64,000 bases of DNA from Isoetes taiwanensis (taxonomy: Eukaryota; Streptophyta; Lycopodiopsida; Isoetales; Isoetaceae). Positions within the stretch are counted from its first letter, which is position 1; every line of letters starts with the position of its first letter. Below the pieces are notes generated by a model, which searched no databases, was not told the origin of the DNA, and saw nothing but the letters and a program-made list of their open reading frames with translations. The stretch is from the NCBI GenBank assembly GCA_021234155.1, contig JAJEKV010000014.1:7393563-7457562 (forward strand), written 5' to 3'. The position numbers and the translations under genes were made by a program. Below are positions 42,268-63,576 of this stretch, one piece after another.

Positions 42268-42272
42268 ATGCA

Positions 42273-42773
42273 TCATACTGCAATAAATGGAGGATCAAAC
42301 CATAATACTCATTCAATATGAACTCTATGGCTTTTATTTTTAAACCATCAAATACCAGTCCTGTATGTCTTACATAACCAGCCGCTATGCCTCAGTACCG
42401 AGAGATATCTTGGTTATTTAAAGGAATGGAAATGAGAATACAAGGTTAGCAAGACCATAGCCGAGAAAGCCATTGCTACTTTATGCAAGAAATTGAAGCT
42501 GAGATTTATGAGCAATGCTACATTTATAACTTAAACTTTCTATTAATGTAGGAAAGATGGTCTACAGCAGTCTACAACCCTTACTGCTGTGTCATTGCTA
42601 ACAGCCATGTAGTAACTCTAAATCTTAAAGAAAACAATATAGGCATTTGTTAGCCATCATTCTAAACTGTGATTAAACTCGTTATGAATTTATGAGTCCA
42701 GAGCTTGCATAAAAATGCAACAAGAGGCCAGAGTTATTGTCATTTCTAATCTAAATGTGTATTTCAGTCTGAC
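42273..42773 (-). other. Intronic part of subfamily B leader, right of the LTR element
   Basis: No gene. It begins at the donor GTCAGA (coding strand, 42773) and continues across the LTR element into 31551-30072. Confidence 0.4.
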
Positions 42774-43122
42774 CTGAATGTCTTCAAGCTCAAACTCGGA
42801 ATCAGAATCTTGTGTATTTGGGACTCTATTCCTGAAGTTAGAATTAGCATGTCTGCCTCCTTCTCCATCCTGCATGCCCACATATCTCTGTTTGTGAGCA
42901 CTAGACCCTTGGTAGTTTTGCCAAGGTCGTTTGCCACTGCCCTTTCCATCAGCTTCCATGTCTGCTTGACAACTCTCAAGGCAAGCTTTGAATTCAGCAG
43001 CAAGCCACTCTTCTTCAAGCGCTTCTTCTCCGTTTGAACTTACCGGATACCCATCAGAATCGTATTCATCAGAGAACATCTTGTGGTTGTTGTATATATC
43101 CAAATCTTTAAGGCATTTATTC
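42774..43122 (-). CDS. Subfamily B leader exon 2 (acidic)
   Basis: 349 nt from an acceptor (GAGACAG) to CAG before GTCAGA; one leading base plus 116 codons, the same phases as exon 2 of subfamily A. The peptide has LKDLDIYNNHKMFSDEYDSD, which lines up with LDLDIC...KMDSDSD of subfamily A, then acidic and Q/N-rich parts and ends DSEFELEDIQ. Function unknown; the acidic block is the conserved feature. Open throughout. Confidence 0.5.
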
Positions 43123-43297
43123 CTGTCTCCTGCATGTATCCGTAATATGCCCTTTACCTTATTGCATCGTGTAAACTTCTATGCCTAATCCAATGAGATC
43201 CTAGGCCTGGCACCATGTATCAGTTATCTTTCCGTCTAAAGTGTAGAGTTTTATTCTAGACACCAAGAAGCGGCCATATTTATGTCAGAAAACATAC

Positions 43298-43347
43298 CTC
43301 GAGCCACCGTTTCTGTACCTGAGTTTGATGTTTAGAGCACATTCCAT
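43298..43347 (-). CDS. Subfamily B leader exon 1
   Basis: From ATG at 43347 the peptide MECALNIKLRYRNGGS ends at CGAG before GTATGTTTT, an excellent 5' splice site, in phase 2 as in subfamily A exon 1. The frame is open further upstream to about 43390 (SSTEN before the M), so the true exon may be longer. It aligns weakly with MPDFASKDQMTSR of subfamily A. Confidence 0.4.
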
Positions 43348-43773
43348 ATTCTCTGTGCTGCTCAGGCCGATTCTATAGCCGTGGACCTAAACGGATTCGT
43401 GTGGAGCATCACTATACTCTGATCGTTAGTACCCTAAATTGAGGTCCTCGATATTTTTGCGGAAATGCAGCATCTTACTACTAGGTTACTTGACCCCCAT
43501 GAAAAACCCTTATTGGGTTATGCCTATATTCCAAATAAAGTTAAAGAGAATATTTATGTAAGTGTAGAATCCAATGGTCCAGCAATGCTTATGCCTAAAC
43601 ATTAGAACCATAGATATTGTTTAATTCCAGTCTAAACCATAGTCTTGGATTTCTCAGATTGCTATTTTAAGCTACAAGAAACCAAACATGTAGTTTGAGG
43701 TATCATTTTAATCATAAATCAGTGTGTCCACTATGGGTTATATGCATGTCAAAGCTATCAAACCATAAGCCCT

Positions 43774-43777
<4 letters not shown>
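43348..43777 (-). other. Start of subfamily B leader cassette, no gene
   Basis: AT-rich leader upstream of exon 1. No TATA box clear of the microsatellite can be named. Confidence 0.3.
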
Positions 43778-43831
<54 letters not shown>

Positions 43832-43953: not shown

Positions 43954-45444
43954 TTACTGTGAATCTTCTACCATGTTAATTTCAGCACATTCATCATCCC
44001 CAAGAGAGGTGATTTCCTTTGCTTCAAAGTTTTTTCCTTTGCTTGTATTTCCGGTCGCATCCACTTGAATTTCCCCATGCTTTCTAGGATCGTTAGTTAT
44101 CCTTGGTGGCAGCTTAGGGGTTTTCACATTTGCAATCTTGGTCTGTTTGTAACCAGAATACCTTTTGTCCACGTAAGGAGGCCTTGTAACAGGACCCTGA
44201 GATTTCAGAAATGACAGAGGTTTCAGAAATGACAGAGGTTTAAGCCCTTTATCTGGGGTCTTAGCAAAGCTTAAAGTCATTTCCAACATCACTTTCCTAA
44301 CCTCTAGATAGGAAATATATGCTATAACAGCTGGTCTTAGTCCATTTTTTAGCATTTTGGTCAAAGACACCATTTTCATCATTAGTGAGGTCTGCGGCAT
44401 AATTGTTTCCATTTGGTTGATCATGAACCAAACACCGTGATCAAACCAAATTACGTTGCATTTGCGTGCTTCTTCTTTTTTCTTCTTGTTGTACTTATTC
44501 TTATCACATCTGCATGTGAAGTAAGGACAATAGGATCTCCAGACCCTTTTGAGATAGAAGTCATCCCTCGTAATATTAGGAAAAGCCATGTGTCCTTTTT
44601 GTAAAATCTGTATTACTCCTCCCTTAAGGCATGTTTGCTCAAAAAAATCCATCTTGAATGGGAACTCTTCAGTAAGTACATTGAAGGTTTTTTCCAGCTT
44701 AATGGCAGCAGCATTAGCATTGTTGATCTCTTTAGTGATCCCTGCCAAAGCAATCCAGGTTTCTACATCAATTGGTGCAAGTGCACCGAAATTCTGGCTT
44801 TTCCAGATTGCATGCTCATACATGACAGCATAGGCTTCTACTGACTGTTCAATGATGACAGGATAACAGGCTGAGTTGGCTAAGGTGAGATTTGGGACAT
44901 CCTCTTCTCCTTCAGTGCCATATACCTTGATTTCCTCACTTTGTGGGAAGTCCTCTTCAATCAGAACCATTTCGGAAAAAAGACTATCCTGTGTATCCTC
45001 TTTTATGGGACTGGCAATCTTCTTCCCTTTGTCTTTATCAAAGGTAAGAGGTACGATTTTATTTCCATCTTCCAATGCAGTAAGGCCAATCACAAAATTC
45101 TTTGCCTGAATGTCCTCAAGACACGTTCTGTCATACAGTATAGTGCTGATTTCCTGATACACATTTGTAATAATGCTTCTACATTTTGTAAATTCAAAAT
45201 TCACTTTTTTCATGGATTGATATACCTTGAACCAGCCGTTAAAGCCAAGGCAAGCTACTGGAGATATTTTCTTGTCACATAAGTTGAACTCCTTGAACGT
45301 AATAAAGGAATGTATCTCCTTGTTTCGAATGCAGCCCAAAATAGTCTGGACTGCATAGTTTGGGCAGTCAATATTGCACTTGTGATAGTCAAATGCCAAC
45401 AGCTCCTTGATCCACTGATTATTTTCCTCATTCATTGTCTTTTC
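43954..45444 (-). CDS. ORF1 exon, subfamily C, intact
   Basis: About 497 codons open from the acceptor (AATATAG at 45445) to TAA 43956-43954. Features by residue from MNEEN: cysteine pair CNIDCPNYAVQT near 20-30; acidic middle; NFGALAPIDVETWIALAG near 215-235; cysteine cluster CPYFTCRCDKN followed by a lysine-rich insert and KCNVIWFDHGVWF near 310-350; C-terminal LPPRITNDPRK. A short FLKPLS tandem duplication lies near 415-425. A donor GTAACT overlaps the stop. Unknown family; same protein as 59477-61081. The RT that should follow is replaced by a foreign leader cassette. Confidence 0.75.
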   Translation of the reverse strand, partial: EKTMNEENNQWIKELLAFDYHKCNIDCPNYAVQTILGCIRNKEIHSFITFKEFNLCDKKISPVACLGFNGWFKVYQSMKKVNFEFTKCRSIITNVYQEISTILYDRTCLEDIQAKNFVIGLTALEDGNKIVPLTFDKDKGKKIASPIKEDTQDSLFSEMVLIEEDFPQSEEIKVYGTEGEEDVPNLTLANSACYPVIIEQSVEAYAVMYEHAIWKSQNFGALAPIDVETWIALAGITKEINNANAAAIKLEKTFNVLTEEFPFKMDFFEQTCLKGGVIQILQKGHMAFPNITRDDFYLKRVWRSYCPYFTCRCDKNKYNKKKKEEARKCNVIWFDHGVWFMINQMETIMPQTSLMMKMVSLTKMLKNGLRPAVIAYISYLEVRKVMLEMTLSFAKTPDKGLKPLSFLKPLSFLKSQGPVTRPPYVDKRYSGYKQTKIANVKTPKLPPRITNDPRKHGEIQVDATGNTSKGKNFEAKEITSLGDDECAEINMVEDSQ

Positions 45445-47901
45445 CTATATTATCAAACAAAAATGTCATTGTTAGCATGATATAATTTCACCTGAATTTT
45501 ATGAAACATAGTCAAGGTTACTGGTATAACCAATAAACTGAGTTAAAGAAAAAAAACCTTTTAAATCTGTCTCCAGACTTTTATCTTGTTAGACCTTTGC
45601 AAGGAACCAACTCGATACAATAAGCAGCCCTAAGTTTAGTCAGGTGTACTAATCTTAGGCCCAGACTATGTTACTTTGTTCTTCCTTAATGAGCTAAAAA
45701 AGACTAATCCATTAACCAATGCCAAGTGTTAAACAAGTATACAACAATGTAAAATTTTCCTTTCCATATGACTTTTCCAAAGCAAAATAGTTACATGTAC
45801 ATCTAATTAGTATCAAACTTTCCACTGTTGAATACTATGAAAATCAAACCAATGCAAACAGAATAATTCATTGTAGCTCCACGAGTGTATTTTCCGCTTT
45901 ATTTCCAATCTTCCAATATGAATTTTTGGTCTTTATCCAGCTTCCACTTTTTAAAGAATACATAACAATGAGCAAAAGATCTTGTTACCTGCACCAACAT
46001 TACAAAAACAAGCATTAGAAATGGTTGCCTTGTACATGGTAGCAGGTGTCATGGGATCTTTTGGGGTCATCCCCCTTCACACTGCTATGTACACAAACAG
46101 AATAGTAAAACATAATCCAAAACAACACCATTAGCAAGGGGAAAACCAGATATACTAATGGAATGGACCAAGGCAAACGCCCCAAGCTGTTCAAACCTGT
46201 TCAAAGTACATCACTATCCTGCGAGAAGATTATTCTATGCCTTTCTACTCTTATGACATCTTTAGCTTATCTGCAGCAGTCTTACAATCTTATGCATGTA
46301 TCCATAGTTACCTTCATTGCCATGCAACATATCAGCATTAAATAGAAGTTTCAAGTCAGCTTCAGACTTTAGCCTTAATCATTATGCCAGATTTAAGATA
46401 TAGCCCAAGCTGGAGCCATCCTCTCTCATTTGCTAAATGTAACCTTACACTTACCTAGTTAGCGCATTTGAGCCAATATATTTCTATTTTCATTAAACTA
46501 TATGCCAGCATCTAAGTTATTACTAATAGCACAAGCAGTATGCAATATTACTACCAGAGTAGTTAGCTGCATTATGAAGACAACAGTATACCATTTACTA
46601 CTGGGGTAAATTATAGCATTAAGCAAATTCTAAATAGCAGCAGTAACATTCATGGATAGCTGACGTAGATCAAGCTTCCTACTATAATTAGTGGCATTAT
46701 CATGCGCAAGATTTGCAGTAAAATGCAATCTGTCTTGTACAGCCAATGTGGGCTTAACCTCTATAAGGTAGATTGGCTGGTCACAGAATTTTAAGGCAAA
46801 TGATGCTGAAACATACAGTTAGTAGGTAGCCGTATCAATATGCATGTCTAATAGTGACCTTACATGCAGTAAATCTACTCAAGACTACTCTGCCCTAATG
46901 CAATCTTTATTGAAGCTCCCATAAGCCTTCAAACTTAGGCAAATACTCATGCTTAAGCCCATGGCTCTGCATGCTGACATGCAACACAGCAACATATAGG
47001 ACAATACATGAATTCTTGTGCTCTTTAAATATTAGAGCCATGCCCTTACACTGTTACCATACGAAGATCTAGCTTTTTAATTTTCAAATATATGCAGGTC
47101 TACACCAAGTTCATATATCCATAGTTACACATAAGTTTATGTTGCAACTTCCAGTAGTTGCTTGTACTGCACAGTACTCCAGTGGATCAATGCCTCGTTT
47201 AGAGAGCTTGTATACAAGGACAGTCTAAATCAATGACTTTAACATCCTTATCTAGAAGTCCCGCTCAATTATATGCATGTAACATGTAACACCTATGAAC
47301 TATGCAAAGGACATCTCTATAAGTACAGCTTCTAGAGAATCTACCTTGTGCTGCCTTAACATTTCTGATCTGTCAGCCTCGCTCATCATAAGATTATGTT
47401 TATAATAAGGCCATGATATCTCAGTGTCAGTTCTAGCACCACACTTCACGTGTGCCTACTGCAAGCCATTTCTAATGATTGAATCGACCATATCAGCTGC
47501 AGATGTATCCGCTTAACCTATATTGTCCTGATCTAACTGTCTGGTTAAATTCAAAACACTGCATCTTACATTTGAACAGTAGCACATACCTTTGTTATTC
47601 TCATGTCTATGCCTTTGTTATTCTCTTGCTGCTCTTTAAATATTTGCGCAAAGCCCCCCCTATAATGTTACCTTGTGCCTATTTATCTTTTAATTTTCTC
47701 AAGTTTAATCTACATCATAATCAAAGGACTGGTTAAGAACCCCATTCTATCAGCTATTATAAGGATTTTCGTCCATGTGATTAATGCTGGTGTTATGATA
47801 CAAGCTCTAGCACTTTAATTTTCATAACTTCAACTTGAATATATAGAAATATACTTGTCTGCTAATACAAATATTAACCTGATTGTCTTGTTTGTGCTCT
47901 T
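45445..47901 (-). other. 5' end of ORF1_C cassette and long intron of the subfamily C leader
   Basis: No gene. Near the cassette start, TTACTGGT and ACCAATAA (45518-45536) form a hairpin whose odd pair is G-U on the coding strand. A8 at 45549-45556 is the boundary. In the leader, 45629-45659 folds with arms CCTAAGTTTAGT and ACTAATCTTAGG; 46041-46086 folds with AGCAG/CTGCT, GTG/CAC and GGGAT/ATCCC. 46100-47900 is AT-rich sequence with nothing recognisable. Confidence 0.5.
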
Positions 47902-47993
47902 GCTATTCTATTCTATTCTATTCTATTCTATTCTATTCTATTCTATTCTATTCTATTCTATTCTATTCTATTCTATTCTATTCTATTCTATTC
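47902..47993 (+). repeat. (TTCTA)18 microsatellite
   Basis: Pure pentanucleotide run of about 92 bases ending exactly at the 3' edge of the leader exon on the coding strand, where a 5' splice site would be expected. Confidence 0.95.
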
Positions 47994-48370
47994 CTTGTTG
48001 CAAGTCTCCAGATCTTGTTGGGGTGGCTGCAATGCCTCCTTGTTGGCTGAAATCTCCATAGATCCATTTGATTTGTTGGGATCTTCATCTTGCACTTCAT
48101 CTGATGCCTTATTTCCACTGGATTCAATGATATTACTCTCAGAGATTTTTGCAATGCAATCATTCCCTCCATTAGGATCCGAATTTGCTGCTTTCTTCCC
48201 AGTTTCAGTGCAATTTTTCAGTGCATCTTTCACAGTTGCCTTGTGAAATTGAAACACCTTCTTGCTGCCTAGCATTAAGCTCTTTTGCTCTGCTATTCTC
48301 TTCCTTGTAGACATATTTAGATCTCCTTTCTTTCTGCCCATGCGCTCACAGAAGCCCGGGCCTTTGCACG
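47994..48370 (-). CDS. Subfamily C leader exon, basic KKGDLN type
   Basis: Starts after a good acceptor (TTTGTTCAG at 48371) and reads CSACKGPGFCERMGRKKGDLN, then TRKRIAEQK and SKKVFQFHKATVKDALKNC, followed by an acidic/Asn-rich tail. The RKKGDLN...TRKRIAE block is shared with the subfamily D leader exon (56168-56764) but not with A, B or E. The basic cluster could be a nuclear localisation or nucleic-acid-binding element (inference). Downstream the microsatellite replaces the expected donor. Confidence 0.45.
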
Positions 48371-49805: not shown

Positions 49806-51902
49806 CTACAGGCCACCTACACCTATTTTACTTATTGCTTGCACCATGTGTTTCGGCTCGCTAATTATATCACTGATATTGTATCTTATTCCAGGGAAGT
49901 TTTCCCTTTGTAAGATGTTCAGGACATTTGTCATTAAGTCCTTCCAGCCAAACCCATTCTTGTGAAACGCATCTATGAGGTCAGCTAAATCTTCTGCTAC
50001 TTTATCACTCTCTGAGTGTTCATATACATAAGGCATTACTTGTGAGATAATCACCTTGGATGCTTGATTGTATGGTCTGCAACTATCTGCACGTATAAAC
50101 TTGTTGACCTTAAAAGGTAGTTTTTCCCTTTTGTCATACCTGGTCACTTTAAACAGTCCTCTGTTGTGATCCACAACTTCGATTGTTAAATTTAGGAAGT
50201 CGCATTTGCTTCCTATTTTGCTTTGGTCCTCATGCTGCTTGCGATATGTAGTCTCATCCTTAATTCCTAAATATTTCATATTATATATGCTAATCTCAGA
50301 TTGAGGAGTAAGAAATTCCATAATATCCCCTCCGTTGACTATATTCAGGTCATCAATGTATCTTGCTGCATTCTGAAACCTATATATGTCCTTGTATCTA
50401 CCTTTGTATCCCAGCTTCATTATGAATTTTAATTCATACCAACCAAGGTATAAATTACACCATGCTGGGCTGCATCCAAACCCCATGGGAATTCCTTTCT
50501 TTTGTATCCAGATTCCATTACCCATTTGTAAATAACAATGGGTCAGAAGCCATTGGTTCATATCTCTAAATTCAGTCCTTGAAATGTGCATCCAACTAGC
50601 AAATTCCTTATCTTTGTAATTCTTAGCCCATTTGACCATAATACTTGCTTTCTTATCTTTTATCACTATATCAAATAGCTGTTTTTCTTCCATCATATAC
50701 ATCCAAATTAGATCTATGATTTCGTTCATAATCTCTACAATTCCTTCACTCCCATATAACGGGATGTTTTCATAACATTTCGTTATGTCCGCTGCAAACA
50801 CATTGTGTACTTTGAAAGGCATATTTAGAACTACATCATATACAGAGTTTATTATCCAGCTTGCATTGATAGGTTTTTTTGCCCATAGCCTGAAAATAGC
50901 TGTCTTTCTGTTACACACCATAGGCCAAATTTCTATAAAATTATTTAGTACTCCGGTAACAATATTTGCAGTGCCTGTAAACAGTGTGTCATAAGCATTG
51001 GTCAACCACCTGTATTCTGCTTTATGCGCTTTGTATATGGCCATCAAGTATGGCATTTATTGTTGGAGAGCTGAGTCACACTGGTGAACTTTGCAATGTC
51101 CGAAATACACAGTTTAATGCACTCTTCAGGGGATATCTCACATTTTTGGAAATCACTGCTTTCTAGTCTATCTCTGGCCATTTGTGCAATATGCTTTTGA
51201 CAAATAAATGCAGCATTATTGGATGCCTTGTCAATACCGGCAACATAAAGGTTTTTGTTGAGCCATTCTACATTTTTCTTTACCTCCTTGTCATTCCATA
51301 AGTATCTTCTGCTAGATTTTGTTTGAACTCTCCATATGGGCGTATTGTATCAACATGTCAGATATATTTTGTATGTCTGTTTCTGTTAGATCTAGCAGGT
51401 CAAATTTGTGAACAGAGAAGAATTGCTGGCATAGTCTTGTGAAATCATTCATAAACTCTTGGATGCAGAAGCTACTATCTGGAATATGGTTCAACCCATA
51501 TTCAAAGGCTTTTCTGAGTTTTCTAGAGTGTATAATATCTAAGTCGATGGCTCTTATATGCCCAATGGTTGGATCCACAAATTTGGCTAGGTTAGGGTTT
51601 TTACATGGGCAACAATTTTTCATTCCATCTGCAAATACGCTATATGGTCTATAGACCTTGTCTTTGATCTGCTCAATATATCTCCAAGAAAAGACTGTTT
51701 TTTCTAGTAGCTCTAATCCTCTTTCTTGCAATGTTTCCATAAGTATTATATGAAAAATCTTTTTTGTATTGAACTTTTCTAGTGCCTTGGAAAAAAACGT
51801 AGCATGAATGATTCGAATATCATTGTTTTCCTCATCTTTACATACCAGGTGTCTCTTTTGGTTGCAGTCTCTGATAATTGTCCTTGTTTTGTTGTTATGC
51901 AC
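49806..51902 (-). pseudogene. RT exon, subfamily B copy 2, two frame breaks
   Basis: Starts after GATGTAG with a GTG codon. The N-terminal block 51902-51312 has CCPCKNPNLAKFVDPTIGHIR. The middle (51312-51056) is open in another frame (NKNLYVAGIDKASNNAAFIC). The C-terminal block 51056-49806 is 416 codons and holds the YKAHKAEYRWLTNAYDT block, motif A FAADITKCYENIP, motif B GIPMGFGCSP, motif C RYIDDLNIVNGG and thumb YDKREKLPFKVNKF. All catalytic residues are present. The two breaks also occur in copy 1, so they predate the duplication or reflect a shared read error. Upstream, ORF1 is separated by inserted cassettes. Confidence 0.8.
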
Positions 51903-51918: not shown

Positions 51919-51977
51919 ACTATTAGTACTAATAGTACCACAGTTACTGCCAGAATTTCAAAAAAAAAAAAAAAAAA
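51919..51977 (-). repeat. 5' end of RT_B copy 2: 18-bp palindrome and A18 boundary
   Basis: Same perfect palindrome as in copy 1 at 51919-51936 and an A18 tract at 51960-51977 followed by CCTTTTAAGCC, the end of leader E. Confidence 0.75.
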
Positions 51978-53822
51978 CCTTTTAAGCCTGTTAAGACCGT
52001 AAGAAACAACAGACTTTAGGCCTTATAGTTCCATTTGGAAAAATAAGGACCTTCAATTGCAATCCTAGAACTAGATAGGTGTAATCTAATTCTAGGCCCT
52101 GATAAGGAGCAAATTAAAATAAAAAATAGATCAAGAAGAAAAGATTACAGAGTAAACACCAAGATATTAAAGACATAGTTCAAAAAATAATAGCTCAAGA
52201 ACGTAATACTTTACAATGTAGACAAAAGAAATATGATATTCAAATAAAAGAGATTGAAAGATATCTCAGATAATATTTGGAGCTTTAAAACAACAACATA
52301 AAATATCGCAATAGTAAAGGAATATTGCAGATCTAGAATGATCCTTAAGTAGCTTATACGAAGCAACTGGTTCTCATAAAATTAACTTATAACAACCATC
52401 AACGGTGGTGTAACATCAAATAACAATTTAAAACAGAGAAAAGTAGATAGATAGATGTCACCAAGAAGCAAAACTTTCAAAGTTGAATCTTGCAGATTTG
52501 AGCAGTGGTTTTTGCTCATCGAACACCATGGAAAATACCACATGGAGGGATAAGTCCGGTTACCTGCAGTGGAACCAAACGCAAGTTAGCCTGAGAAGGG
52601 TAAATGCGTAAGCCACAAACAGGTAAGCAGTGAACTCATCCGGCTTAACGCCTTTCACCATAAAACGAACACGTAATAATAATAAGAGACAGCAGTTAAG
52701 AAAATGAATTCTGAAATTGATACAACGGAAATAGAGAGAGTTTAGATTATCAGTGCAAACTGCTGCAAGAACATTTATGTAAGTAGAAATCAGGATAAAT
52801 ATACCACGAATCCACCTTCAAGGTTAGTGTACAGCTCATGAAACAGTTTCAGAAAATTTCTGATTTCCAGACTTAAGTTGTCTATTCCCATGATCTTCAA
52901 TCCGTTGAAAAACTTACACATAAGCATTTTTCAGCGTGTTTAATTTGGTGGCAGCATAGAAGGCTACATGTTTTATCTTGCAAGTAAAAGACGAAGCTAA
53001 AATTCACATCCTGATTATAACCATATCATGTAAAAAACAAATATTATTCAAACGGCAGAAGATATTAGCACACCAAGGCAATAACTGCATGAGCTAAGTT
53101 ATAGGAGGAAGATAAAACATAGAACAGAATAGGTAGAGCAAAGAACATTAATATTATGATGCATTAGAATAGCAAAGCATGAATAAACTCCAGAAATAAC
53201 TTGAAATCAGATTATCCTAGTTTAAACTATCAAGACTGAAATGTATACAGCATGCAGGAGTATGGGTTAAAACAATAAAGGAAACATATGGAGAACCTAT
53301 ATAAATTAGGGGAATGAATTTAAGAGAAAGAAAATTTTCTACTAGCAAATAAGATGATTTAGTACAAAAGGCCTGAATTAGGGACCGAAGAATTAGATCA
53401 GAGAGGTTGGGAAATTAGATCAGAGAGGTTGGAAAACGGATCAGAAAAGTTGGAGAGGTTGGAATTGAACAGCAGGCCACAGTAACTTGTTGAAGCTGCA
53501 CTATATGAGCAAAGTTACAAGAGGAAGAACAAGATAAAATTAGACTTTATATTATGGAAAGAACACGAATCAGATAAGCAATTATAGACAGATATTAACT
53601 AGAAGATATGAGCAGCATAGATAACTAATTCCAGACATAAGGAAGGACATGGATATTAATGGTGTAGTTCAGGAATAAGGCTGAGGCCTGGATAAGGGAT
53701 ATACACCAGGATTATGGAATAGATCATACTGAAAAAATCAAATAATATCTTGACGAATATAATCTAAATGGAGATCATAGTGTTAATGAAAGAAGATAGA
53801 ATGCAACAGTATGAACCTAAAC
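51978..53822 (-). other. Leader E, long non-coding part with RNA hairpins
   Basis: No gene. 52064-52096 folds into a 13-bp stem (arms CCTAGAACTAGAT and ATCTAATTCTAGG) with one pair that is U-G only on the coding strand; it matches the hairpin of leader C. A GGTGAAAGGCG-containing structure and a CTGCAG motif near 52565-52665 correspond to the mid-leader hairpin of other subfamilies. The rest is purine-rich DNA without frames. Confidence 0.45.
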
Positions 53823-54063
53823 CTTATTTGAAGAATCGTGCAGAGGAACTCCAGCTTATTTGATCATGAAAAACTCCAGTAGTTGAAGATGCAGTCGGAT
53901 TCACACTAGGTTGCCAGATTGGTAGCCGATTTGGTACAAAACACATTGGGCAAGGAAATTTGCCCCTTAATGCTTCGCTATTCAGGACTGTAAACTTGTA
54001 AACTTGTTCTGCTGGTACAAGAGCTGGCAGAGGAAAGACGGTTAAGAACACATCGGCAGCCAT
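53823..54063 (-). CDS. First exon of leader E
   Basis: ATG at 54063 in a good plant context (ACGATGGCT) opens MAADVFLTVFPLPALVPAEQ and continues about 80 codons to AAATAAG before GTTTAG; the in-frame stop sits on the exon edge. The first 17 residues are hydrophobic and signal-like. It contains CPMCFVPN. It has no similarity to the first exons of the other leaders. It is preceded by a TATA box and a pyrimidine-rich leader, so it looks like the start of a real transcript. Product unknown. Confidence 0.45.
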
Positions 54064-54236
54064 CGTGAGATCTTCAGAGCGGAGCTTGCAGACCTAAACC
54101 CAAGGAAGAGATCCACGAAAAAAGAAAAGGAGAAAAAACCTAAAGGAGAAATTTCGAAAATGAAAAGATAGAAAAAGGAAAAATAAACTGATAAAAAGAA
54201 ACCTTAGGGGTAACATAGATATAGATCGAGAAGACA

Positions 54237-54245
54237 ATATTTATA
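54237..54245 (-). promoter_or_regulatory. TATA box of leader E
   Basis: GTATAAATA on the coding strand, about 175 bases before the ATG. The intervening sequence is strongly pyrimidine-rich (TTTCTCCTTTAGG, CTCCTTTTC), as in many plant 5' leaders. Confidence 0.45.
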
Positions 54246-54680
54246 CAAAAAAAGTAGATCGAGAAGACAAGATAAAGAATATAGGGAACTTGACAAAGAT
54301 CCAAAGAAATAAGATGCCATAAAAATTTCCCATACAGAATAAAAGGATATGAACAAGTTCAAGACTAAAGTGAAACACGACTATACAATCTATGAGACAA
54401 TTTATGGGGCGAAAGGTCGATCCAATGGTTACAAAATTTGGAAGCAAATCCAGCTTGAACCCCATGGATATGAGGTTTATGAAGTCCGAATATGAATATA
54501 TAGTTAGAGATTATGAAAAAAGATGAGATAGTTGGGCCAGTGGCAATCCTAGCACATATAGAAGCATATACTATGAAATCAATCAGAAGATGTATTGTGT
54601 AGAATAGTGTTCCAATAGGAACAAGGAAATCTGGCGTAAGAATATCATAACATTATAAAAAAAAAAAAAAAAAAAAAAAA
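54246..54680 (-). other. Upstream part of leader E and A24 boundary
   Basis: No gene; a TTGTATAG-rich AT region. A24 tract at 54657-54680 followed by CCC joins it to the 3' end of the subfamily D leader copy 1. Confidence 0.5.
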
Positions 54681-56167
54681 CCCAAAATCAGTTCTAGACC
54701 ACTAGAACCTCTTTTTACTGTCAAAAAGACAGCCCAATTAGCAGTCCTAAACACAGGCAAAAACCTATGTCTAGGTCAATGTCCTGGTTTAACATCAGAG
54801 CTAAAAACCTTTTATTCAAGTAGTTCCCAAAATGCCAAGCTTACAATGTATGCATGTTTAACCTATAATTCAAGGTTTCACACCTTCTATTAATATGATC
54901 AAACATACCATTACCCACCTTCTTAATAAGTGGACCATGTACATGTTAAAAACTTATTTCAAACTATTATCAACATTTTGTCATCCCAAATACCTTTATA
55001 TTAAATGACATAAGCAATTTAGATGAAAATTCCTGCATATCTCTAAGTGTATTCGACACTATTATTAATTCATAGTTTCTATTTATGCCTAACATCACCA
55101 TTAGGACAATATTCAAACCCCATCCACTTTATCACCTATGTATCCAACCATTAGAATAATGGATGTACCAGATTCATGCCTTCTTGTTTTCAAGAAAATT
55201 GTGCAAAAAAATAAAAAACGAGGATTCATTTAATCTCCTATTCAAGCACCATAATCCATCCAATGGAACCAGCATACCTTTTAAACTTCACATTTAAGCC
55301 TATTATTCATGTATCGCTTTTTTTATTTTCCATGGTCATGCGGACTTTACCTTAATATCAGTAAAAAATTGCTCCCATATCTCTGATTTTATCTTTATTA
55401 CTGTATATTATGCTATCAGCTGATGCACCGACTTTTTAACTAATATTTTGACTTAGATCAGTGCAAATAGTCAAGTATCCATCACATAAAATACCTAATA
55501 TAAGCCCCATATACTTTTAATCACGTTTTCAAACATGCATCAAGAGTCAATAAGCATAGATTCAATGAGAAACTATATTCGGATCAAAGTAACCCAGGTA
55601 ATAATACAAGATCCATGTATTGAAAAAGCATCTTCATAACTTTCCTTTGTTTAGCTATACCTTGAATCATCCTATTCCTTACACCATTATATTTGGTCAC
55701 AACACATCATAATCTACAGCAAAAAGATATTACCAAGCTTATTGGAAACAAATGTTTAAGAATGTCATATTTCCCCTCCAACTCCAGGAATTATATGGAT
55801 CAGCTTTTATCTCCTTGAAAATACAAAACAGAGAGCAAGGAAATCTGTTACCTGCAGTAGAACCAAAGGACAGTTAGCCAAGAAATGGGTAAAAGCCTAA
55901 GCTACTAGCAGGGTGTCATGGATTTCCTTGAGGTTATCCCATTTCACCCTGCTTATATTTTCGCTACATAGCTATCAAATTAATCATCAGTTTCCAAGAG
56001 AGAAATCAGTCAGAAGAATTTAAAGGCTGTTTCTATCCATATCTTGGAAACTAAGACAGTATGCCCCACTATTTATTTTTCCTATTTAAGCATATGTTCA
56101 AAATACATCATCTAAATATTCATTGATACATTTCCCAACTATAATTCTCAAATTAAACCTATCAAAC
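54681..56167 (-). other. Subfamily D leader copy 1, intron with RNA hairpins
   Basis: Non-coding. 54746-54775 folds on the coding strand into 12 continuous pairs (arms CCTAGACATAGG and CCTGTGTTTAGG) with two G-U pairs that are A-C on the + strand. 55908-55952 folds with perfect 8-bp arms GCAGGGTG and CACCCTGC around GGAT/ATCC. 55860-55870 carries the conserved CTGCAG. The donor of the preceding exon is GTTTGAT at 56167. Confidence 0.5.
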
Positions 56168-56764
56168 CTTAGAGATTCGAGTAGATCCCATTGTTTTCTC
56201 CATAATGGTCCCCTCACATTGGCCAGCTTCTTTGTTACTGTAAGTAAACTCGAATGCATCCTCTTTATTGCCATCTCTGGTGTCTGCCATGCTGATAGCT
56301 TCATTTCCCCTTTCAGTGATCCCACAATCAGATATGGGATTTGCTGGTCCCTGAGCCTTTTCCTTATCTTTTACCTTCTCTATATCTCCACTTTGGCAAG
56401 CTTTCAATGCAGGATCCCTCACTGACTTGTGGTATTGGTAAATCTTCTTACTAGACCCCTCATTCTGCTTTGTTTCAGCAATCCTCTTCCGGGTGGCTTG
56501 ATTCAAGTCACCCTTCTTCCTTGGCATATTTGCTACCAGGGATCTACCCCTGGGTAGCGGCCTCCTAATTCTAGAACTGAGAACTACCATTTTCGGAGCA
56601 GTCCAGTTTAAATAGCATGCAACAATACTTACTACCGACAGTTCTATATGATGTTTCATACCTATTTTGGCCTGTCGTGGGTTCTTAGTCCTTGCTGTCA
56701 TATCCTTGTTCTTCTCTGCCAGTCGCTCGTCTACCTGTCGTCTTGGTTCCAGAAGTTTCTTCAT
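56168..56764 (-). CDS. Subfamily D leader exons copy 1, basic KKGDLN type
   Basis: 200 codons are open from MKKLLEPRRQ at 56764. It probably comprises two exons: the first up to the donor GTATGA near 56659, the second holding MPRKKGDLNQATRKRIAE, SKKIYQYHKS, and an acidic tail ending STRISK before GTTTGA in phase 0, which fits the ORF1 acceptor. The RKKGDLN...TRKRIAE block is shared with subfamily C (47994-48370). Very basic N-terminal half suggests nuclear targeting or RNA binding (inference). In this copy it is followed by leader E, not by its own ORF1. Confidence 0.45.
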
Positions 56765-57201
56765 GCCCTAAAGCTTATTTCCGGCATCCAGGTTGCCCTA
56801 AAATTTGCAGCATGTCGAAATATTCGTAATGGTTTGTTAGTAATCAAACAGATCAATAATAATACCTTTGTATAAGCCATTATCTTCAACAACCTTTTTC
56901 TTCATTATAAATCCATCCTTTTGCTTAACATTATAACTATGCATCCAAGTTCTAATGTAGGCCACTTTTTAAATACCCATGGTCTACTTGACAACCTCTC
57001 TTCATCATATGCATCTACACTTATTTTCAATTAATAAAAAACCCTGCCACCTACCACAGGTCAGGGGGGCCAAATTATATTTTTATGTGCAAAAAAAAGG
57101 AAACTTTGTCTGGTAGCAACAAGGGACATAGGACCTTGTTGCACCAAGGCCCTACCCCACCCATCTTGTTCTACCCTATTCGTCATGCAGCTCAAATTTT
57201 G
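56765..57201 (-). other. Start of leader D copy 1, boundary, and RT_D 3' trailer
   Basis: No gene apart from a possible tiny exon near 56890 (MKKKVVEDNG before GTATTA). Leader starts at about 57035. A6 at 57036-57041, then CCC: coding-strand end of the RT trailer is GGTAGGTGGCAGGG then T6. The trailer has a 9-bp hairpin, GCAACAAGG (57116-57124) with CCTTGTTGC (57134-57142). Confidence 0.55.
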
Positions 57202-59274
57202 TTATAATCTGTGCTTGAGGTATCTTATCATTTCCTGAATTTTGTAAAGTAAACCAGGAAACTCTTCTCCCTGTACAACATTAAGCACAATTTGGGTAAT
57301 CTTATTTTTCCCAAAACCATTACTTACAAAAGCTTCAATTAATTCATGAAGACTCCCGGCCGCTTCTTCAGCTTCTGAGTGTGCATACAGATATGGTGCT
57401 ATTTGTGAAATGATTACTTTAGAAGCCTGTTTATATGGCCTGCAGCTGTTTGCTCTAATAAACTTGTTTACTTTGAATGGTAGACTGTTCCTCTTATCAT
57501 ACCTGTGCATTTTGAACGTCCCTCTGTTATGGTCAGTAACCATGAATGACAAATTCAGAAAATTACATGTAACCCCAACTGGTTTATCCGAGTTATCCCT
57601 TGTCTCATAACCTGTTTCATCTCTGATACTAAGACAGTTTAGGTTGTATATAGGAAATTCTGCCTCATTAGTAAGAAATTCCATCACCTGTCCCCCATTA
57701 ATCACATTTAGGTCATCTATATATCTTGTGGCATGTTGAAACCTATAGATGAGATCATATTTATTGTTGTGAGCTAAGTTCAGAATAAACCTCAATTCAT
57801 ACCATGCAAGGTAGAGGTTGCACCAAGCAGGGCTGCAGCTAAAGCCCATTGGTATTCCCTTAACCTGTTTCCATATTTCGTTACCCATTTGTATGTAGCA
57901 GCTGCTCAAAAGCCAAGCATTTATATCTTTAAATTCCTGTTTGGTGACCAGTTTCCAGCTAATGTTCTCTTTGTCCTTGGAAGATCTTGCCCACTTTACT
58001 TTGATCCCCTCATTCCTTGCCTTAATGAGCATGTCAAAATATGTATGTTCGATCATTTGATGCTCCCATATCATGTCTGCTACTTCATTTAGAATCTCTA
58101 TAATACCATCCTCTCCAAATAGAGGGATATTCTCATAGCATTTCATTATGTCCGCTGAAAATACATTGTGGATTCTACTTGGCAAATTTAATACCACATC
58201 ATACATGGAATTTACAATCCAACACGCATTAATCTTTCTTGGGTGCCAAAACCTGAATTTTGCAGTCACCTTGAAGCACACTTTAGGCCAAACTTCCAGG
58301 AAATTATTTAAAATCCCTGTTACAATACCAGCACATTCTGAATATAATGTATTGTGGGCGTTTGTCAACCACCTATAATCTCCTTTATGTTCCTTGTACG
58401 TCGCCATTAAGTATGGGAGTTTCATACTTTGTAACTCTATTTCCCCGGTAAGTCTCTTTATTTCTAGCATACATTTCCTTTTCACTTCCTCAGGTTTAAG
58501 TTTTTGCTTCTGAAAATCTGCACTATCCAGCCTAAGTTTGGCCATCTGAAAAATGTGTTTCGGACAAATGAAAACTGCATTATTGGCTGCTTTATCCAAG
58601 CCAGCCACATATAAGTTCTTATTAAGCCAATCAATATTTTTTAGCACTTCCTTATCCTTCCATAAAAATCTTTTTTGTTGAAGAGTGTTCTTCAAATCCA
58701 CAATCTGTGTATGTGCTACTTTCTGTAATAGCTCACATAAGTTCAAGACATCAGTGTCTGTGAGATCAAGCAAGTCATATTTGTGTGCTTGAAAAAATTG
58801 CTGGCACATTTTAGCAAATTCTTCCATGAATTCTTGGACGCTCAGGGCGTTGTCAGGGATATGGTTGAGGCCACATTCCATCGCCTTTTTCAACTTTGTT
58901 GAATGTATAATATCCAAGCTGGTAGTTCTGACATGGCCAATCCTTTGGTCAATGAATTTTGCTAAATTAGGGTTTGAGCATGGACATTTCTTAACATCAT
59001 TATCAGCAAATGTCAGGAATGGTTTGTACACCTTGTCCCTTATCTGTTCAATATACCTCCAAGCAAATTTCGTGTTGTTTACAATTTCAGTTCCCCTATC
59101 CTGAAATACTTCAAACATAATGTTGTGGAAAATACCTCTAATGTCAAAGCCTTCCATTGCTTTAGAGAGAAAAGTCATATGTACTATTTTAGCATCTTTG
59201 TCCCTTTCTTTGCATTGCAAGTGCCTGTTTTTATTTATGTCCCTAATAATGGTCCTGTTCTTCCCAATTTCCAC
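57202..59274 (-). CDS. Reverse transcriptase exon, subfamily D, intact 690 residues
   Basis: The one uninterrupted RT here. The exon starts after TTTTTGTAG with GTG GAA ATT. N-terminal domain: KCPCSNPNLAKF (Cys 97 and 99) and GHVRT at 113-117. A block GLDKAANNAVFICPKH (225-240) and YKEHKGDYRWLTNA (293-306) precede the palm. Motif A is FSADIMKCY with Asp 375; motif B GIPMGFSCSP 473-482; motif C RYIDDLN with Asp 520-521; thumb RYDKRNSLPFKVNKF from 591. About 100 residues separate motifs A and B, more than in most retroelement RTs. The motif style (GIPMG, YIDD, YDKR) is that of the Penelope-like/rvt branch, not LTR or LINE RTs. No endonuclease domain is visible. It would copy the element RNA. 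Confidence 0.85.
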   Translation of the reverse strand: MEIGKNRTIIRDINKNRHLQCKERDKDAKIVHMTFLSKAMEGFDIRGIFHNIMFEVFQDRGTEIVNNTKFAWRYIEQIRDKVYKPFLTFADNDVKKCPCSNPNLAKFIDQRIGHVRTTSLDIIHSTKLKKAMECGLNHIPDNALSVQEFMEEFAKMCQQFFQAHKYDLLDLTDTDVLNLCELLQKVAHTQIVDLKNTLQQKRFLWKDKEVLKNIDWLNKNLYVAGLDKAANNAVFICPKHIFQMAKLRLDSADFQKQKLKPEEVKRKCMLEIKRLTGEIELQSMKLPYLMATYKEHKGDYRWLTNAHNTLYSECAGIVTGILNNFLEVWPKVCFKVTAKFRFWHPRKINACWIVNSMYDVVLNLPSRIHNVFSADIMKCYENIPLFGEDGIIEILNEVADMIWEHQMIEHTYFDMLIKARNEGIKVKWARSSKDKENISWKLVTKQEFKDINAWLLSSCYIQMGNEIWKQVKGIPMGFSCSPAWCNLYLAWYELRFILNLAHNNKYDLIYRFQHATRYIDDLNVINGGQVMEFLTNEAEFPIYNLNCLSIRDETGYETRDNSDKPVGVTCNFLNLSFMVTDHNRGTFKMHRYDKRNSLPFKVNKFIRANSCRPYKQASKVIISQIAPYLYAHSEAEEAAGSLHELIEAFVSNGFGKNKITQIVLNVVQGEEFPGLLYKIQEMIRYLKHRL

Positions 59275-59476
59275 CTACAAAAATATCATATATCAGAATT
59301 TGTCATATTATTTTATAAGAAAATTCAGAAATTCAATAGAATTAATACTTATATTTCCAAAATACTTGGCCTAATGGCACAGTACAAAAATGCTGTCATA
59401 GACATTTGTTTTTTTCAAAAAAATACTAAGCCATATATTTGGGGCTTCTATATATTCTGAAGCAAAAATTCAGATA
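59275..59476 (-). other. Intron between ORF1 and RT, subfamily D
   Basis: 202 bases, AT-rich, with a clear acceptor TTTTTGTAG. The donor is not obvious: ORF1 stops with TAG inside GAATAGTATCTG, and GTATCT directly at the stop is the best candidate. In subfamilies B/C the corresponding intron is the place where foreign cassettes are inserted. Confidence 0.4.
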
Positions 59477-61081
59477 CTATTCCTGTGAATCTTGCACATA
59501 TTCAAGCTTCATAGGAGTATTTTCATCTAATGATATGATCTTGTCATCCAATTTTGTGATGGAGTATGCATCCACCACTACCACACTTCCCGAAGTTGGA
59601 GTGTTAGGAATTTGTGCCATTTCCTTAGTACCCCTTGGGTCACATGTAATTCTTGGAGGCATTTTAGGAGTTCGAGTAATACTCTGCTTTGATCTGGAGC
59701 TGTTGCTGCTAACTTCAGATTTACCATAGAAGGTCCTTTTGTTTGAAGATATTTTGTCTTTCAGAAAAGACACTGGTCGGATCATCTTTTCTGCAATATC
59801 CGCCATCTTACTGTTGCCAAATGCTTCCTTTAAATTTGTTCTAGAATTCTTGGCAAACTGTAAAGTCATTTCAATCATGATCCTCCTCACTTCAAGATGA
59901 GATATATATGCCATCACTGCTGGTTTCATGATCTTGTTCAGCATTTTAGTCATTATGACCATTTTAAGCATTGGAGTTGTACCAGGGTATAGTTTTTCCA
60001 TATGGTTCATCATAAACCATATCCCTTGGTCAAACCAAACAATAGTGCATTTGCACTTATCATCATTATTTTTCTTGAAACTGAATTTTTCTTTTTCACA
60101 TTGGCACCTAAAATAAGGGCAATGTGTTCTGAAAATACGCTTGAGATAGTAGTCATCTCTGTCAATACTAGCAAATGCCATGTGCCCCTTTTGGCTGATT
60201 ACAATAGGAGCATTTTTAATGCAAGTGAGTCCAAAAAAATCCATCTTGAAATTAAGATCTGGATTGATACTAGGAAAAGCTTTTTCCAGTTTGTGGGCTG
60301 CACCCTTTGCTTCCATTATTTCCTCATTAGAAATACCAGCTAAGGCAATCCACGTTTCCAGGTCAATTGGGGCAAGAGCTGCAAAATTCTGGCTTAGCCA
60401 AATAGCATGGTCATAAATTCCAGCATAACACTCCACAGTCTGTTCTATGAGGACAGGAAAACATGTTGAATTTGCTAATGTCAATTCAGGGACGCTTTCA
60501 TCAAAGTCCAGCTCTTTATTTAGCGGTTCCTTAATATCCAATAGTCTTTCCTTTTTATAATTAATCCCTGCCAGATCATCTTCATTGAGGTCAGAATCAG
60601 AGAATAGACATTCATTGGAATCTCCAGCCATCTCGATTTCTGCTTTTTGAATGACCACTTCATCTTTCTGAAAAGATGGCATTATATCATTAGCAATTTC
60701 CAAAGCAGTGATGCCTGCAACAAATTTCAGAGCAGCTTCATCTTCAAGACATGTTCTCTTGAACATAATATTCTCCATATCATTATAAAGAGTGGTGATG
60801 ATGCTTTTGCATTTGCCGAACTCAAAATTTGTCTTCTTCATGTTTTGAAACACTTTGAACCAGCCACTAAATCCCAAATATGAAACCGGGGATAAAGCTT
60901 TGCTGTATAAATTAACTTCCTTGAAAGTTATAAAAGAATGGATCTCCTTATTTCTGATGCACCCGAGTATTGTTTGCACAGCAAAATTTGGGCTGCAGAT
61001 CTTACATTTGTCATAGTCCAATGCCACTAATTCTTTAATCCATTGGTTGTATATGTCAGGTTCGTCTTCCCCAAGTGGTTC
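59477..61081 (-). CDS. ORF1 exon, subfamily D, intact
   Basis: About 534 codons open from the acceptor (TGTTTAG at 61082) to the stop. No ATG lies near the start (EPLGEDEPDIYNQWIKELVA), and TAG is in frame directly before it, so splicing to a leader exon is needed. Landmarks: NQWIKELVALDYDKCK; AVQTILGCIRNKEIHSFITF; acidic middle with SDSDLNEDDLAG; NFAALAPIDLETWIALAG; QKGHMAFASIDRDDYYLKR; cysteine cluster CPYFRCQCEKEKF then KCKCTIVWFDQGIWFMMN; basic tail with MPPRITCDPRG. No known family. Possible roles are a Gag-like RNA-binding protein or an RT partner; this is inference from position and composition. Confidence 0.8.
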   Translation of the reverse strand, partial: EPLGEDEPDIYNQWIKELVALDYDKCKICSPNFAVQTILGCIRNKEIHSFITFKEVNLYSKALSPVSYLGFSGWFKVFQNMKKTNFEFGKCKSIITTLYNDMENIMFKRTCLEDEAALKFVAGITALEIANDIMPSFQKDEVVIQKAEIEMAGDSNECLFSDSDLNEDDLAGINYKKERLLDIKEPLNKELDFDESVPELTLANSTCFPVLIEQTVECYAGIYDHAIWLSQNFAALAPIDLETWIALAGISNEEIMEAKGAAHKLEKAFPSINPDLNFKMDFFGLTCIKNAPIVISQKGHMAFASIDRDDYYLKRIFRTHCPYFRCQCEKEKFSFKKNNDDKCKCTIVWFDQGIWFMMNHMEKLYPGTTPMLKMVIMTKMLNKIMKPAVMAYISHLEVRRIMIEMTLQFAKNSRTNLKEAFGNSKMADIAEKMIRPVSFLKDKISSNKRTFYGKSEVSSNSSRSKQSITRTPKMPPRITCDPRGTKEMAQIPNTPTSGSVVVVDAYSITKLDDKIISLDENTPMKLEYVQDSQE

Positions 61082-62696
61082 CTAAACACATGACACCATT
61101 CAAACTTTAATTAGTAAAATGAGTTCAAATCAATAGTAATATTAATAATTCTAAACCAGAGACATTGTTATTGGTATAACCAATAAACTGAAATGTGATA
61201 AAAAAAACCCAAAATCAGTTCTAGACCACTAGAACCTCTTTTTACTGTCAAAAAGACAGCCCAATTAGCAGTCCTAAACACAGGCAAAAACCTATGTCTA
61301 GGTCAATGTCCTGGTTTAACATCAGAGCTAAAAACCTTTTATTCAAGTAGTTCCCAAAATGCCAAGCTTACAATGTATGCATGTTTAACCTATAATTCAA
61401 GGTTTCACACCTTCTATTAATATGATCAAACATACCATTACCCACCTTCTTAATAAGTGGACCATGTACATGTTAAAAACTTATTTCAAACTATTATCAA
61501 CATTTTGTCATCCCAAATACCTTTATATTAAATGACATAAGCAATTTAGATGAAAATTCCTGCATATCTCTAAGTGTATTCGACACTATTATTAATTCAT
61601 AGTTTCTATTTATGCCTAACATCACCATTAGGACAATATTCAAACCCCATCCACTTTATCACCTATGTATCCAACCATTAGAATAATGGATGTACCAGAT
61701 TCATGCCTTCTTGTTTTCAAGAAAATTGTGCAAAAAAATAAAAAACGAGGATTCATTTAATCTCCTATTCAAGCACCATAATCCATCCAATGGAACCAGC
61801 ATACCTTTTAAACTTCACATTTAAGCCTATTATTCATGTATCAGCTTTTATTTTCCATGGTCATGCAGACTTTACCTTAATATCAGTAAAAAATTGCTCC
61901 CATATCTCTGATTTTATCTTTATTACTGTATATTATGCTATCAGCTGATGCACCGACTTTTTAACTAATATTTTGACTTAGATCAGTGCAAATAGTCAAG
62001 TATCCATCACATAAAATACCTAATATAAGCCCCATATACTTTTAATCACGTTTTCAAACATGCATCAAGAGTCAATAAGCATAGATTCAATGAGAAACTA
62101 TATTCAGATCAAAGTAACCAGCAGGTAATAATACAAGATCCATGTATTGAAAAAAGCATCTTCATAACTTTCCTTTGTTTAGCTATACCTTGAATCATCC
62201 TATTCCTTACACCATTATATTTCTGGTCACAACACATCATAATCTACAGCAAAAAGATATTACCAAGCTTATTGGAAACAAATGTTTAAGAATGTCATAT
62301 TTCCCCTCCAACTCCAGGAATTATATGGATCAGCTTTTATCTCCTTGAAAATACAAAACAGAGAGCAAGGAAATCTGTTACCTGCAGTAGAACCAAAGGA
62401 CAGTTAGCCAAGAAATGGGTAAAAGCCTAAGCTACTAGCAGGTGTCATGGATTTCCTTGAGGTTATCCCATTTCACCCTGCTTATATTTTCGCTACATAG
62501 CTATCAAATTAATCATCAGTTTCCAAGAGAGAAATCAGTCAGAAGAATTTAAAGGCTGTTTCTATCCATATCTTGGAAACTAAGACAGTATGCCCCACTA
62601 TTTATTTTTCCTATTTAAGCATATGTTCAAAATACATCATCTAAATATTCATTGATACATTTCCCAACTATAATTCTCAAATTAAACCTATCAAAC
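61082..62696 (-). other. L_D start hairpin, boundary and leader D copy 2 intron
   Basis: No gene. TTATTGGT and ACCAATAA (61168-61186) form an 8-bp hairpin with loop ATA at the start of the coding cassette. A8 at 61200-61207, then CCC, is the end of the leader. 61273-61302 is the 12-pair hairpin, and 62438-62483 the mid-leader hairpin (one G fewer than copy 1). The region is nearly identical to 54681-56167; differences are at CAG/CTG triplets (for example 61841 TCAGCTTTT against 55317 TCGCTTTTT). Confidence 0.55.
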
Positions 62697-63295
62697 CTTA
62701 GAGATTCGAGTAGATCCCATTGTTTTCTCCATAATGGTCCCCTCACATTGGCCAGCTTCTTTGTTACTGTAAGTAAACTCGAATGCATCCTCTTTATTGC
62801 CATCTCTGGTGTCTGCCATGCTGATAGCTTCATTTCCCCTTTCAGTGATCCCACAATCAGATATGGGATTTGCTGGTCCCTGAGCCTTTTCCTTATCTTT
62901 TACCTTCTCTATATCTCCACTTTGGCAAGCTTTCAATGCAGGATCCCTCACTGACTTGTGGTATTGGTAAATCTTCTTACTAGACCCCTCATTCTGCTTT
63001 GTTTCAGCAATCCTCTTAGGGTGGCTTGATTCAAGTCACCCTTCTTCCTTGGCATATTTGCTACCAGGGATCTACCCCTGGGTAGCGGCCTCCTAATTCT
63101 AGAACTGAGAACTACCATTTTCGGAGCAGTCCAGTTTAAATAGCATGCAACAATACTTACTACCGACAGTTCTATATGATGTTTCATACCTATTTTGGCC
63201 TGTCGTGGGTTCTTAGTCCTTGCTGTCATATCCTTGTTCTTCTCTCGCCGGCGCTTTCGTCTACATTGCCGTCTTGGTTCCAGAAGTTTCTTCAT
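62697..63295 (-). pseudogene. Subfamily D leader exons copy 2, one frame break
   Basis: Same as 56168-56764. A change near 63018 (CTCTTAGGGTGG against CTCTTCCGGGTGG) shifts the frame inside the TRKRIAE block, and 63243-63268 differs at CAG/CTG-like sites. This is the leader directly upstream of the intact ORF1 and RT, so the unit 63563-57042 would be complete if these differences are read errors. Confidence 0.45.
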
Positions 63296-63576
63296 GCCCT
63301 AAAGCTTATTTCCGGCATCCAGGTTGCCCTAAAATTTGCAGCATGTCGAAATATTCGTAATGGTTTGTTAGTAATCAAACAGATCAATAATAATACCTTT
63401 GTATAAGCCATTATCTTCAACAACCTTTTTCTTCATTATAAATCCATCCTTTTGCTTAACATTATAACTATGCATCCAAGTTCTAATGTAGGCCACTTTT
63501 TAAATACCCATGGTCTACTTGACAACCTCTCTTCATCATATGCATCTACACTTATTTTCAATTAAAAAAAAAAAAA
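63296..63576 (-). other. Start of leader D copy 2 and A13 boundary
   Basis: The leader begins at 63563 with AATTGAAAATAAGTG on the coding strand, exactly as at 57035. A13 at 63564-63576 joins it to the end of the ORF1_C cassette. Confidence 0.6.

Follow-up and report, generated by a model that had tools for sequence, protein, structure and literature searches.

A Penelope-like element of Isoetes taiwanensis that most likely carries its RNA origin inside an intron

Results

Gene organisation of the D unit and its relatives

The DNA under study, hereafter the window, is a 64,000-nucleotide stretch of contig JAJEKV010000014.1 from the lycophyte plant Isoetes taiwanensis; all coordinates are window positions and the analysis was made from the DNA sequence alone. 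On its minus strand, positions 63572 to 57042 are occupied by the D unit, a retroelement composed of a leader exon (ATG at 63055), an exon containing open reading frame 1 (ORF1) and an exon coding for a reverse transcriptase (RT), which we take to be a variant of the Penelope-like elements (PLEs). A preliminary description of the same DNA had proposed such a unit, with an ORF1 of roughly 530 codons and a 690-codon RT on one strand, and our coordinates agree with it (Table 1). The first part of the unit recurs behind it as a 2.37-kb copy, and we refer to both copies as pseudo-long terminal repeats (pseudo-LTRs); relative to the leader of the second copy (56527-56168), that of the 5′ copy is frameshifted. 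Both large exons are directly preceded by splice acceptors, as had been stated, which read GTGTTTAG/GAA before ORF1 and TTTTTGTAG/GTG before the RT (slashes mark exon borders).

An RT search of the genome contigs (1.658 Gb, 1110 contigs), in which 64 of 4757 first-look candidates were scored, gave at least 65 RT matches, the window's own included, with identities of 54-100%; 48 of these have no inner stop, and the family is a large one in the host genome. Twenty of the 65 match places, spread over the identity range, were taken as loci, 19 of them without an inner stop in the RT, and downstream extensions were added for 12. These loci follow the order leader exon, intron 1, ORF1 exon, intron 2 and RT exon. 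ORF1 is present in 19 of the 20, a leader is found upstream in 15, downstream in 17 and on at least one side in 19, and all three coding parts occur together in 15. An unusually large distance between ORF1 and RT in L019, L022 and L028 points to inserts in intron 2.

The ORF1 acceptor lies in phase 0 in all 19 loci that have it and the RT acceptor in all 20; in five cases an automated pick took a later in-frame AG (ORF1 in L019, L020 and L022, RT in L018 and L025), which left the phase unchanged. The preliminary description spoke of leader exons; only one is supported here, with a phase-0 end at AAG/GTTTG in D and CAG/GT in A2 and E, two further copies in the window. Among 31 leaders, 17 carry the AAG/GTTTG donor in phase 0 (upstream 10 of 14, downstream 7 of 17) and two more have CAG/GTTT. 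Order and phases support a unit built like a spliced gene, in keeping with the intron-bearing RT element that had been proposed. Leader plus ORF1 and leader plus RT are both in frame, which suggests that either of the two acceptors can be used or that the ORF1 exon is skipped; this would give a leader-ORF1 and a leader-RT product. Of the 14 intact ORF1 copies in the loci, 11 carry the motif V-x-(D/E)-S within their last ten residues (exceptions: L021, L028 and L029); ORF1 thus has a conserved end of its own, and the RT is therefore likely to be a separate product.

ORF1 and the RT are conserved coding sequences

The ratio of nonsynonymous to synonymous divergence (dN/dS) was 0.07-0.18 for the RT in the 17 of 190 pairs of loci with dS below 1, and 0.06-0.19 for ORF1 in the 6 of 105 pairs with dS below 1. 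Between the subfamilies of the window, for which dS is saturated, the corresponding ratio of uncorrected proportions (pN/pS) was 0.30-0.48 for the RT, 0.38-0.56 for ORF1 and 0.51 for the leader. These low values argue against chance open reading frames and indicate purifying selection on both ORF1 and the RT.

The profile and database comparisons that had been proposed as a check gave little for ORF1, which has no match in NCBIfam or the PDB and no credible one in Pfam, PHROGs or PADLOC; it is supported as a conserved protein of no recognised family. The RT matched RVT_1 of Pfam, below the cut-off, in 21 of 22 alignment members at E 0.1, and had weak RT matches in NCBIfam, PHROGs and PADLOC; PDB profile searches with the RT and ORF1 returned nothing useful. 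At the same E value, no GIY-YIG domain was found in the 22 members of the RT alignment or the 17 of the ORF1 alignment, and no Pfam match to an apurinic (AP) or restriction-like (RLE) endonuclease, an integrase or a tyrosine recombinase. The RTs of PLEs share ancestry with telomerase RT (TERT). The RT profile matched one of two exons of the host TERT at E 1.3e-4 (best of 100 shuffles, 0.97) and the other at E 6.1, and it does not find the RT of the gypsy element in the window. An approximate animal RT fragment scored E 2e-25 with this profile, which we treat as a lead only. Residues C97-P-C99 of the RT are conserved in at least 90% of the rows at those columns. Structure predictions of the RT and ORF1 from shallow alignments reached a mean predicted local distance difference test (pLDDT) score of 39 and predicted template modelling (pTM) scores of 0.27-0.28.

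No relatives were confirmed in scans of viral contigs or, for the RT only, in bacterial and archaeal genomes and phages. Pattern scans of viral contigs with motifs of animal PLEs gave one match, rejected as chance by its reading frames, and a second scan gave none.

Intron 1 contains a covarying RNA structure

Neither the RNA structures of intron 1 nor the copy junctions treated in the next section had figured in the preliminary description. The intron 1 sequences of D, B, F, A and E have one alignable block in common, and D and B additionally share a stretch just 5′ of ORF1. The consensus fold of the block over these five sequences has 49 pairs, with two-sided changes at 33. None of 500 shuffles reached any of five measures, sliding abolished the fold, and its z-score against column shuffles was -22. 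An RNA model built from seven copies found eight places in the window, including A1, which the model had not used, and 35 matches over 19 of the 20 loci, with none in L014. In a second model with 44 matches (38 distinct), two-sided changes were seen at 38 of 46 pairs and 85.9% of cells pair compared to 67.5% in shuffles; this second alignment was fitted to the structure and is biased towards it, unlike the five-sequence alignment that was shuffle-tested. Nothing in the window reached the gathering score of an Rfam family, hammerhead included; two sub-threshold matches lie elsewhere in the unit.

Two other readings of sequence blocks were rejected: the intron 1 block TGCAG/GTAAC, considered as a recursive splice site, is one strand of the RNA structure, and a block with an open frame in A and E, considered as coding, has differing frames there and stops in D and B.

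Copies end at a U-run between two hairpins

Shortly before ORF1, intron 1 contains the motif GG-U7-9 between two hairpins. In DNA, GG followed by at least seven T falls 85-135 nt before the ORF1 acceptor (a slot of 51 nt) in 17 of 19 loci, where the remaining sequence would predict 0.13. The hairpins were compared in 21 sequences, namely 18 loci together with D, B and A3, with L014 and L024 left out. For the downstream hairpin, 156 of 160 cells pair over 20 distinct rows and 4 of 8 positions show two-sided changes, whereas sliding leaves 31-62 cells and none of 300 column shuffles reaches its energy. Folded singly, the six pseudo-LTR ends in the window gave z-scores of -1.9 to -6.1, while single folds of the downstream hairpin and of unit 3′ ends were not significant.

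The junctions of the copies were followed in 19 loci, L024 being left out for want of an ORF1. The upstream part of the element aligns with a downstream copy in 17 of these (not L014 or L022), and the 3′ end of the pseudo-LTR is in view in 13, exactly at the GG-T-run in 12. Beyond such an end the T-run grows to 13-30 before other DNA begins, or to 10 in L029, where T-rich DNA comes next. Of the other loci, L020 runs into ORF1, the match in L012 covers 451 nt only, and that in L023 extends to where the sequence taken ends. A GG-T14 stands behind the downstream leader of L024, and the three window copies concerned (D's copy, F and E) all end at the GG-T-run. All 14 upstream 5′ ends that are in view fall at T-runs, and the unit 3′ end likewise reads GGG-T6-10. 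Read from these junctions, the copied stretch takes in the donor of the leader and, as far as the U-run, most of intron 1.

L017, L021 and L026 have a common 3′ flank, a T-run followed by GAAGG(T/C)AAGAA, and in L025 the same flank follows a GG-T7 run at 10731 (oriented, extended); it is perhaps a repeated target. Since this flank follows long T-runs in three insertions and a short run in L025, T-runs seem to lengthen on insertion.

Other copies and neighbouring sequences in the window

The window holds further copies, labelled A to F (Table 1). The D insert is flanked by the tail of a B ORF1 (64000-63688) and a C RT (51902-49806), and a second B ORF1 (45444-43957) is followed by inserted DNA and then by a second C RT (29994-28406). 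Because B ORF1 and C RT flank inserts at two places, what was labelled B and C probably belongs to a single subfamily, as its ORF1 and its RT. For subfamilies A, B and C, described before as alike in order and phases, no clear RT acceptor could be read in A, and the frame of the B leader is upset by a perfect (CTATT)18 microsatellite (47903-47993) at the end of its exon. In both B/C units the inserts (63572-51960 and 43800-30052) apparently lie in the same intron 2 T-run, between ORF1 and RT, and a partial copy inserted there puts a leader donor upstream of the RT exon.

The E copy is interrupted in its intron 1 by a Ty3/gypsy element on the plus strand (31557-42265) with broken frames, matches to gag and integrase, and LTRs (31557-32147 and 41679-42265) that are 94% alike. 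A 19-bp minisatellite (GCCTACGTGGCATGTTTGA) occurs at 23370-27284 and 20376-20632 in opposite orientations, and between the two arrays are large inverted repeats (21514-22475; 20702-21036 with 22972-23306). A plus-strand ORF at 16620-17054 resembles the end of a plant multicopper oxidase, which we take to be of the LPR kind.

Table 1. Positions of the D unit, its parts and the other copies in the window.
Feature	Position	Strand	Remarks
Pseudo-LTR of D unit (5′ end, leader exon, most of intron 1)	61200..63572	-	99.0% identity to 54673-57041; 5′ junction at T-run
D leader exon (MPRKKGDLN..., basic)	62697..63055	-	Donor AAG/GTTTG; frameshifted in this copy, two tblastn frames
Covarying RNA structure, intron 1 of D	62348..62481	-	Covariation
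GGG-T8, end point of pseudo-LTR copy	61200..61210	-	Proposed start of reverse transcription; hairpin directly upstream
Covarying hairpin 3′ of U-run	61167..61187	-	
ORF1 exon	59477..61081	-	534 codons + stop; CPYFxCxC cluster
Intron 2, including ORF1 3′ untranslated region	59275..59476	-	
RT exon	57202..59274	-	690 codons + stop; CPC motif, GIPMGFSCSP, YIDD
GGG-T6 at 3′ end of D unit	57036..57044	-	Boundary with next copy
Second D pseudo-LTR	54673..57041	-	Leader 56527-56168 open; RNA structure 55818-55952; end GGG + T-run of 24 (54680-54657)
F, partial copy	51960..54656	-	RNA structure 52530-52661; end GG-T18 (51979-51960); leader could not be placed
RT of B/C unit	49806..51902	-	In three frames
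B	43954..48341	-	Leader 48341-48027; RNA structure 45955-46085; GG-T8 before ORF1; ORF1 45444-43954
E, partial copy	30052..43780	-	Acidic leader (from 43079); split by gypsy element 31557-42265; RNA structure 31243-31369; end GG-T20 (30073-30052)
Second C RT	28406..29994	-	Truncated and broken
A, three head-to-tail units	1..15982	-	6.4-kb spacing; third cut by window edge; RNA structures 14788-14918, 8379-8503, 1958-2086

Discussion

We consider it probable that the D unit represents a PLE of a lycophyte plant, without a recognisable endonuclease, that selects its products by acceptor choice and uses intron 1 as the origin at which its unspliced RNA is copied from an A-run primer. Transcription would start near the 5′ end of a unit and may extend across tandem units. 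If the leader exon is spliced to the ORF1 exon, leader-ORF1 would result, and splicing past ORF1 to the RT exon would yield leader-RT. RNA retaining intron 1 would be the genomic RNA, since this intron carries both the RNA structure and the hairpin-GG-U7-9-hairpin origin; lying 3′ of the donor, the covarying structure would label such RNA as unspliced. At a T-run target, the A-run on the other strand would anneal by its 3′ end to the U-run and prime the first strand, made by an RT that would be in contact with this RNA. Copying from the origin back to the RNA 5′ end would leave a solo pseudo-LTR, and a start at the origin of the next tandem unit would leave a full unit plus a pseudo-LTR. That copies hold the leader donor and the interior of intron 1 argues that the copied RNA was unspliced at this intron, and an RNA origin inside an intron is the most likely arrangement.

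Several observations weigh against this scheme. The preliminary argument that a missing start codon makes splicing necessary stands for the D unit, in which neither exon edge offers a start codon and the acceptor itself creates an in-frame TAG, but not as a general rule: the RT exon has an early in-frame ATG (within the first 4-6 codons) in 5 of 20 loci, and splicing is therefore not strictly needed to start the RT there. The described donors are missing from 12 of 31 leaders, mostly where the frame is broken or cut; a simple scoring ranks some other GT higher in several leaders. L014 lacks leader, RNA structure and GG-T-run alike, and L013, the other locus without GG-T7+, has a variant run. 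The copy in L028 ends past the GG-T-run, within T-rich sequence, and that in L011 loses homology in mid intron. An upstream hairpin of at least five pairs stands directly before the U-run in all 21 sequences, a count made without a shuffled control, and RNAalifold found no consensus fold for it in the sequence alignment. Neither ORF shows a known nuclease that could nick the target, and the place of the RT among PLEs is weakly tested.

The GG-T-run might instead be a transcription or processing end, pseudo-LTR RNAs ending there and being copied from their 3′ ends. A hairpin followed by a U-run does resemble a terminator, and the unit 3′ end also has its GGG-T6-10; yet full units do not stop at the run but carry on to ORF1 and RT, and conservation includes the second hairpin on its far side, beyond the reach of a terminated RNA, so we regard such an end as improbable. 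The junctions could also come from an ordinary endonuclease-deficient PLE of the Athena or Coprina kind that exploits breaks and free 3′ ends; the RNA folds would then serve splicing control only, and the T-run ends would be by-products of repair in T-runs. Two ORFs, a length of about 6.5 kb and tandem arrays fit the description of PLEs lacking an endonuclease (PMC6431247), as does the lack of an endonuclease domain in the 22 and 17 alignment members. Repair alone leaves unexplained why diverged copies end at one homologous U-run with its two hairpins, and this reading is at odds with the inner position of several copies, megabases inside contigs, and with the absence of the doubled telomere repeat TTTAGGG, which has 0 matches in a scan restricted to the window. 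This explanation is unlikely, though less so than a terminator.

We give very little credence to the idea that leader, ORF1 and RT form one polyprotein through splicing from within ORF1 to the RT exon. Both exons do stand in order on one strand and the RT acceptor is in phase 0, but the C-terminus and stop of ORF1 are conserved in most copies and no conserved donor was seen near the ORF1 end by eye in D and B, where no systematic search was made.

Going beyond the scheme set out above, a PLE lineage may have made a spliceosomal intron its replication origin, with both a recognition RNA and the U-run primer site in intron 1, splicing parting message (leader-ORF1 or leader-RT) from genome and ORF1 acting as a T-run-opening nuclease or a chaperone; we put this forward tentatively, as somewhat less than an even chance. 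If only unspliced RNA can be copied, this would explain why the element keeps its introns. Intron retention by PLEs has no settled cause, and a paper of 2013 sets antisense against unspliced templates (PMC3846280); were the start site in the intron itself, this retention would become directly testable. The element would also be a natural example of insertion primed by an A-run at a defined RNA origin. Because its RT scores below the Pfam cut-off, automatic repeat annotation may well miss this abundant element. In the literature we recognised no paper on an intron-borne start or on this ORF1, which is weak evidence of novelty, as the main papers on endonuclease-deficient and N-terminal-endonuclease PLEs lay outside the coverage.

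Among known systems, PLEs share with the D element tandem or partial-tandem copies with 2-kb pseudo-LTRs and introns kept in the copies. The view that an upstream ORF as such is foreign to PLEs is not supported: endonuclease-lacking PLEs have two ORFs and a length of 4-6 kb (PMC6431247), and such elements are listed for Selaginella and conifers (PMC9033089). Canonical PLEs with an endonuclease carry a GIY-YIG domain and, in the pseudo-LTR, a hammerhead ribozyme; neither turned up here, in the alignment members and in the window respectively. The likeness of our element to these (Athena, Coprina; Selaginella, conifers) extends to two ORFs, the lack of an endonuclease domain, the size class and head-to-tail arrays (PMC6431247, PMC9033089). 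They differ in adding to chromosome ends with telomere repeats, where here T-runs are the sites, and the likeness is one of description. LINE (long interspersed nuclear element), LTR and DIRS elements are marked by an AP or RLE endonuclease, an integrase or a tyrosine recombinase, none of which was matched by the RT or ORF1 alignment members. A LINE has a poly(A) 3′ end, whereas here a T-run stands on the sense strand at the 3′ end. The PLEs Chlamys and Naiad, with an N-terminal endonuclease and reportedly described by Craig et al. in 2021, are said to have a CxC motif before the RT, pseudo-LTRs and insertion into simple sequence, all three of which recur here, the first as the conserved CPC; the CxC motif between endonuclease and RT is a defining mark of their clade. 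They carry an N-terminal GIY-YIG, whereas none was detected here and ORF1 is separate. A retroviral packaging signal, downstream of the splice donor, marks unspliced RNA as the genome; it works alike without being a relative, and in our element intron 1 would contain the priming site as well. The closest parallel in the copying step is Poseidon, a PLE of the lizard Anolis, whose reverse transcription begins at an internal stem loop close to the end of the pseudo-LTR, at AT-rich DNA (PMC11167929). Poseidon has a single ORF with GIY-YIG and a hammerhead, and starts in the ORF region, not an intron, from another stem loop (PMC11167929); the junctions described here fit its scheme, with the start placed in intron 1.

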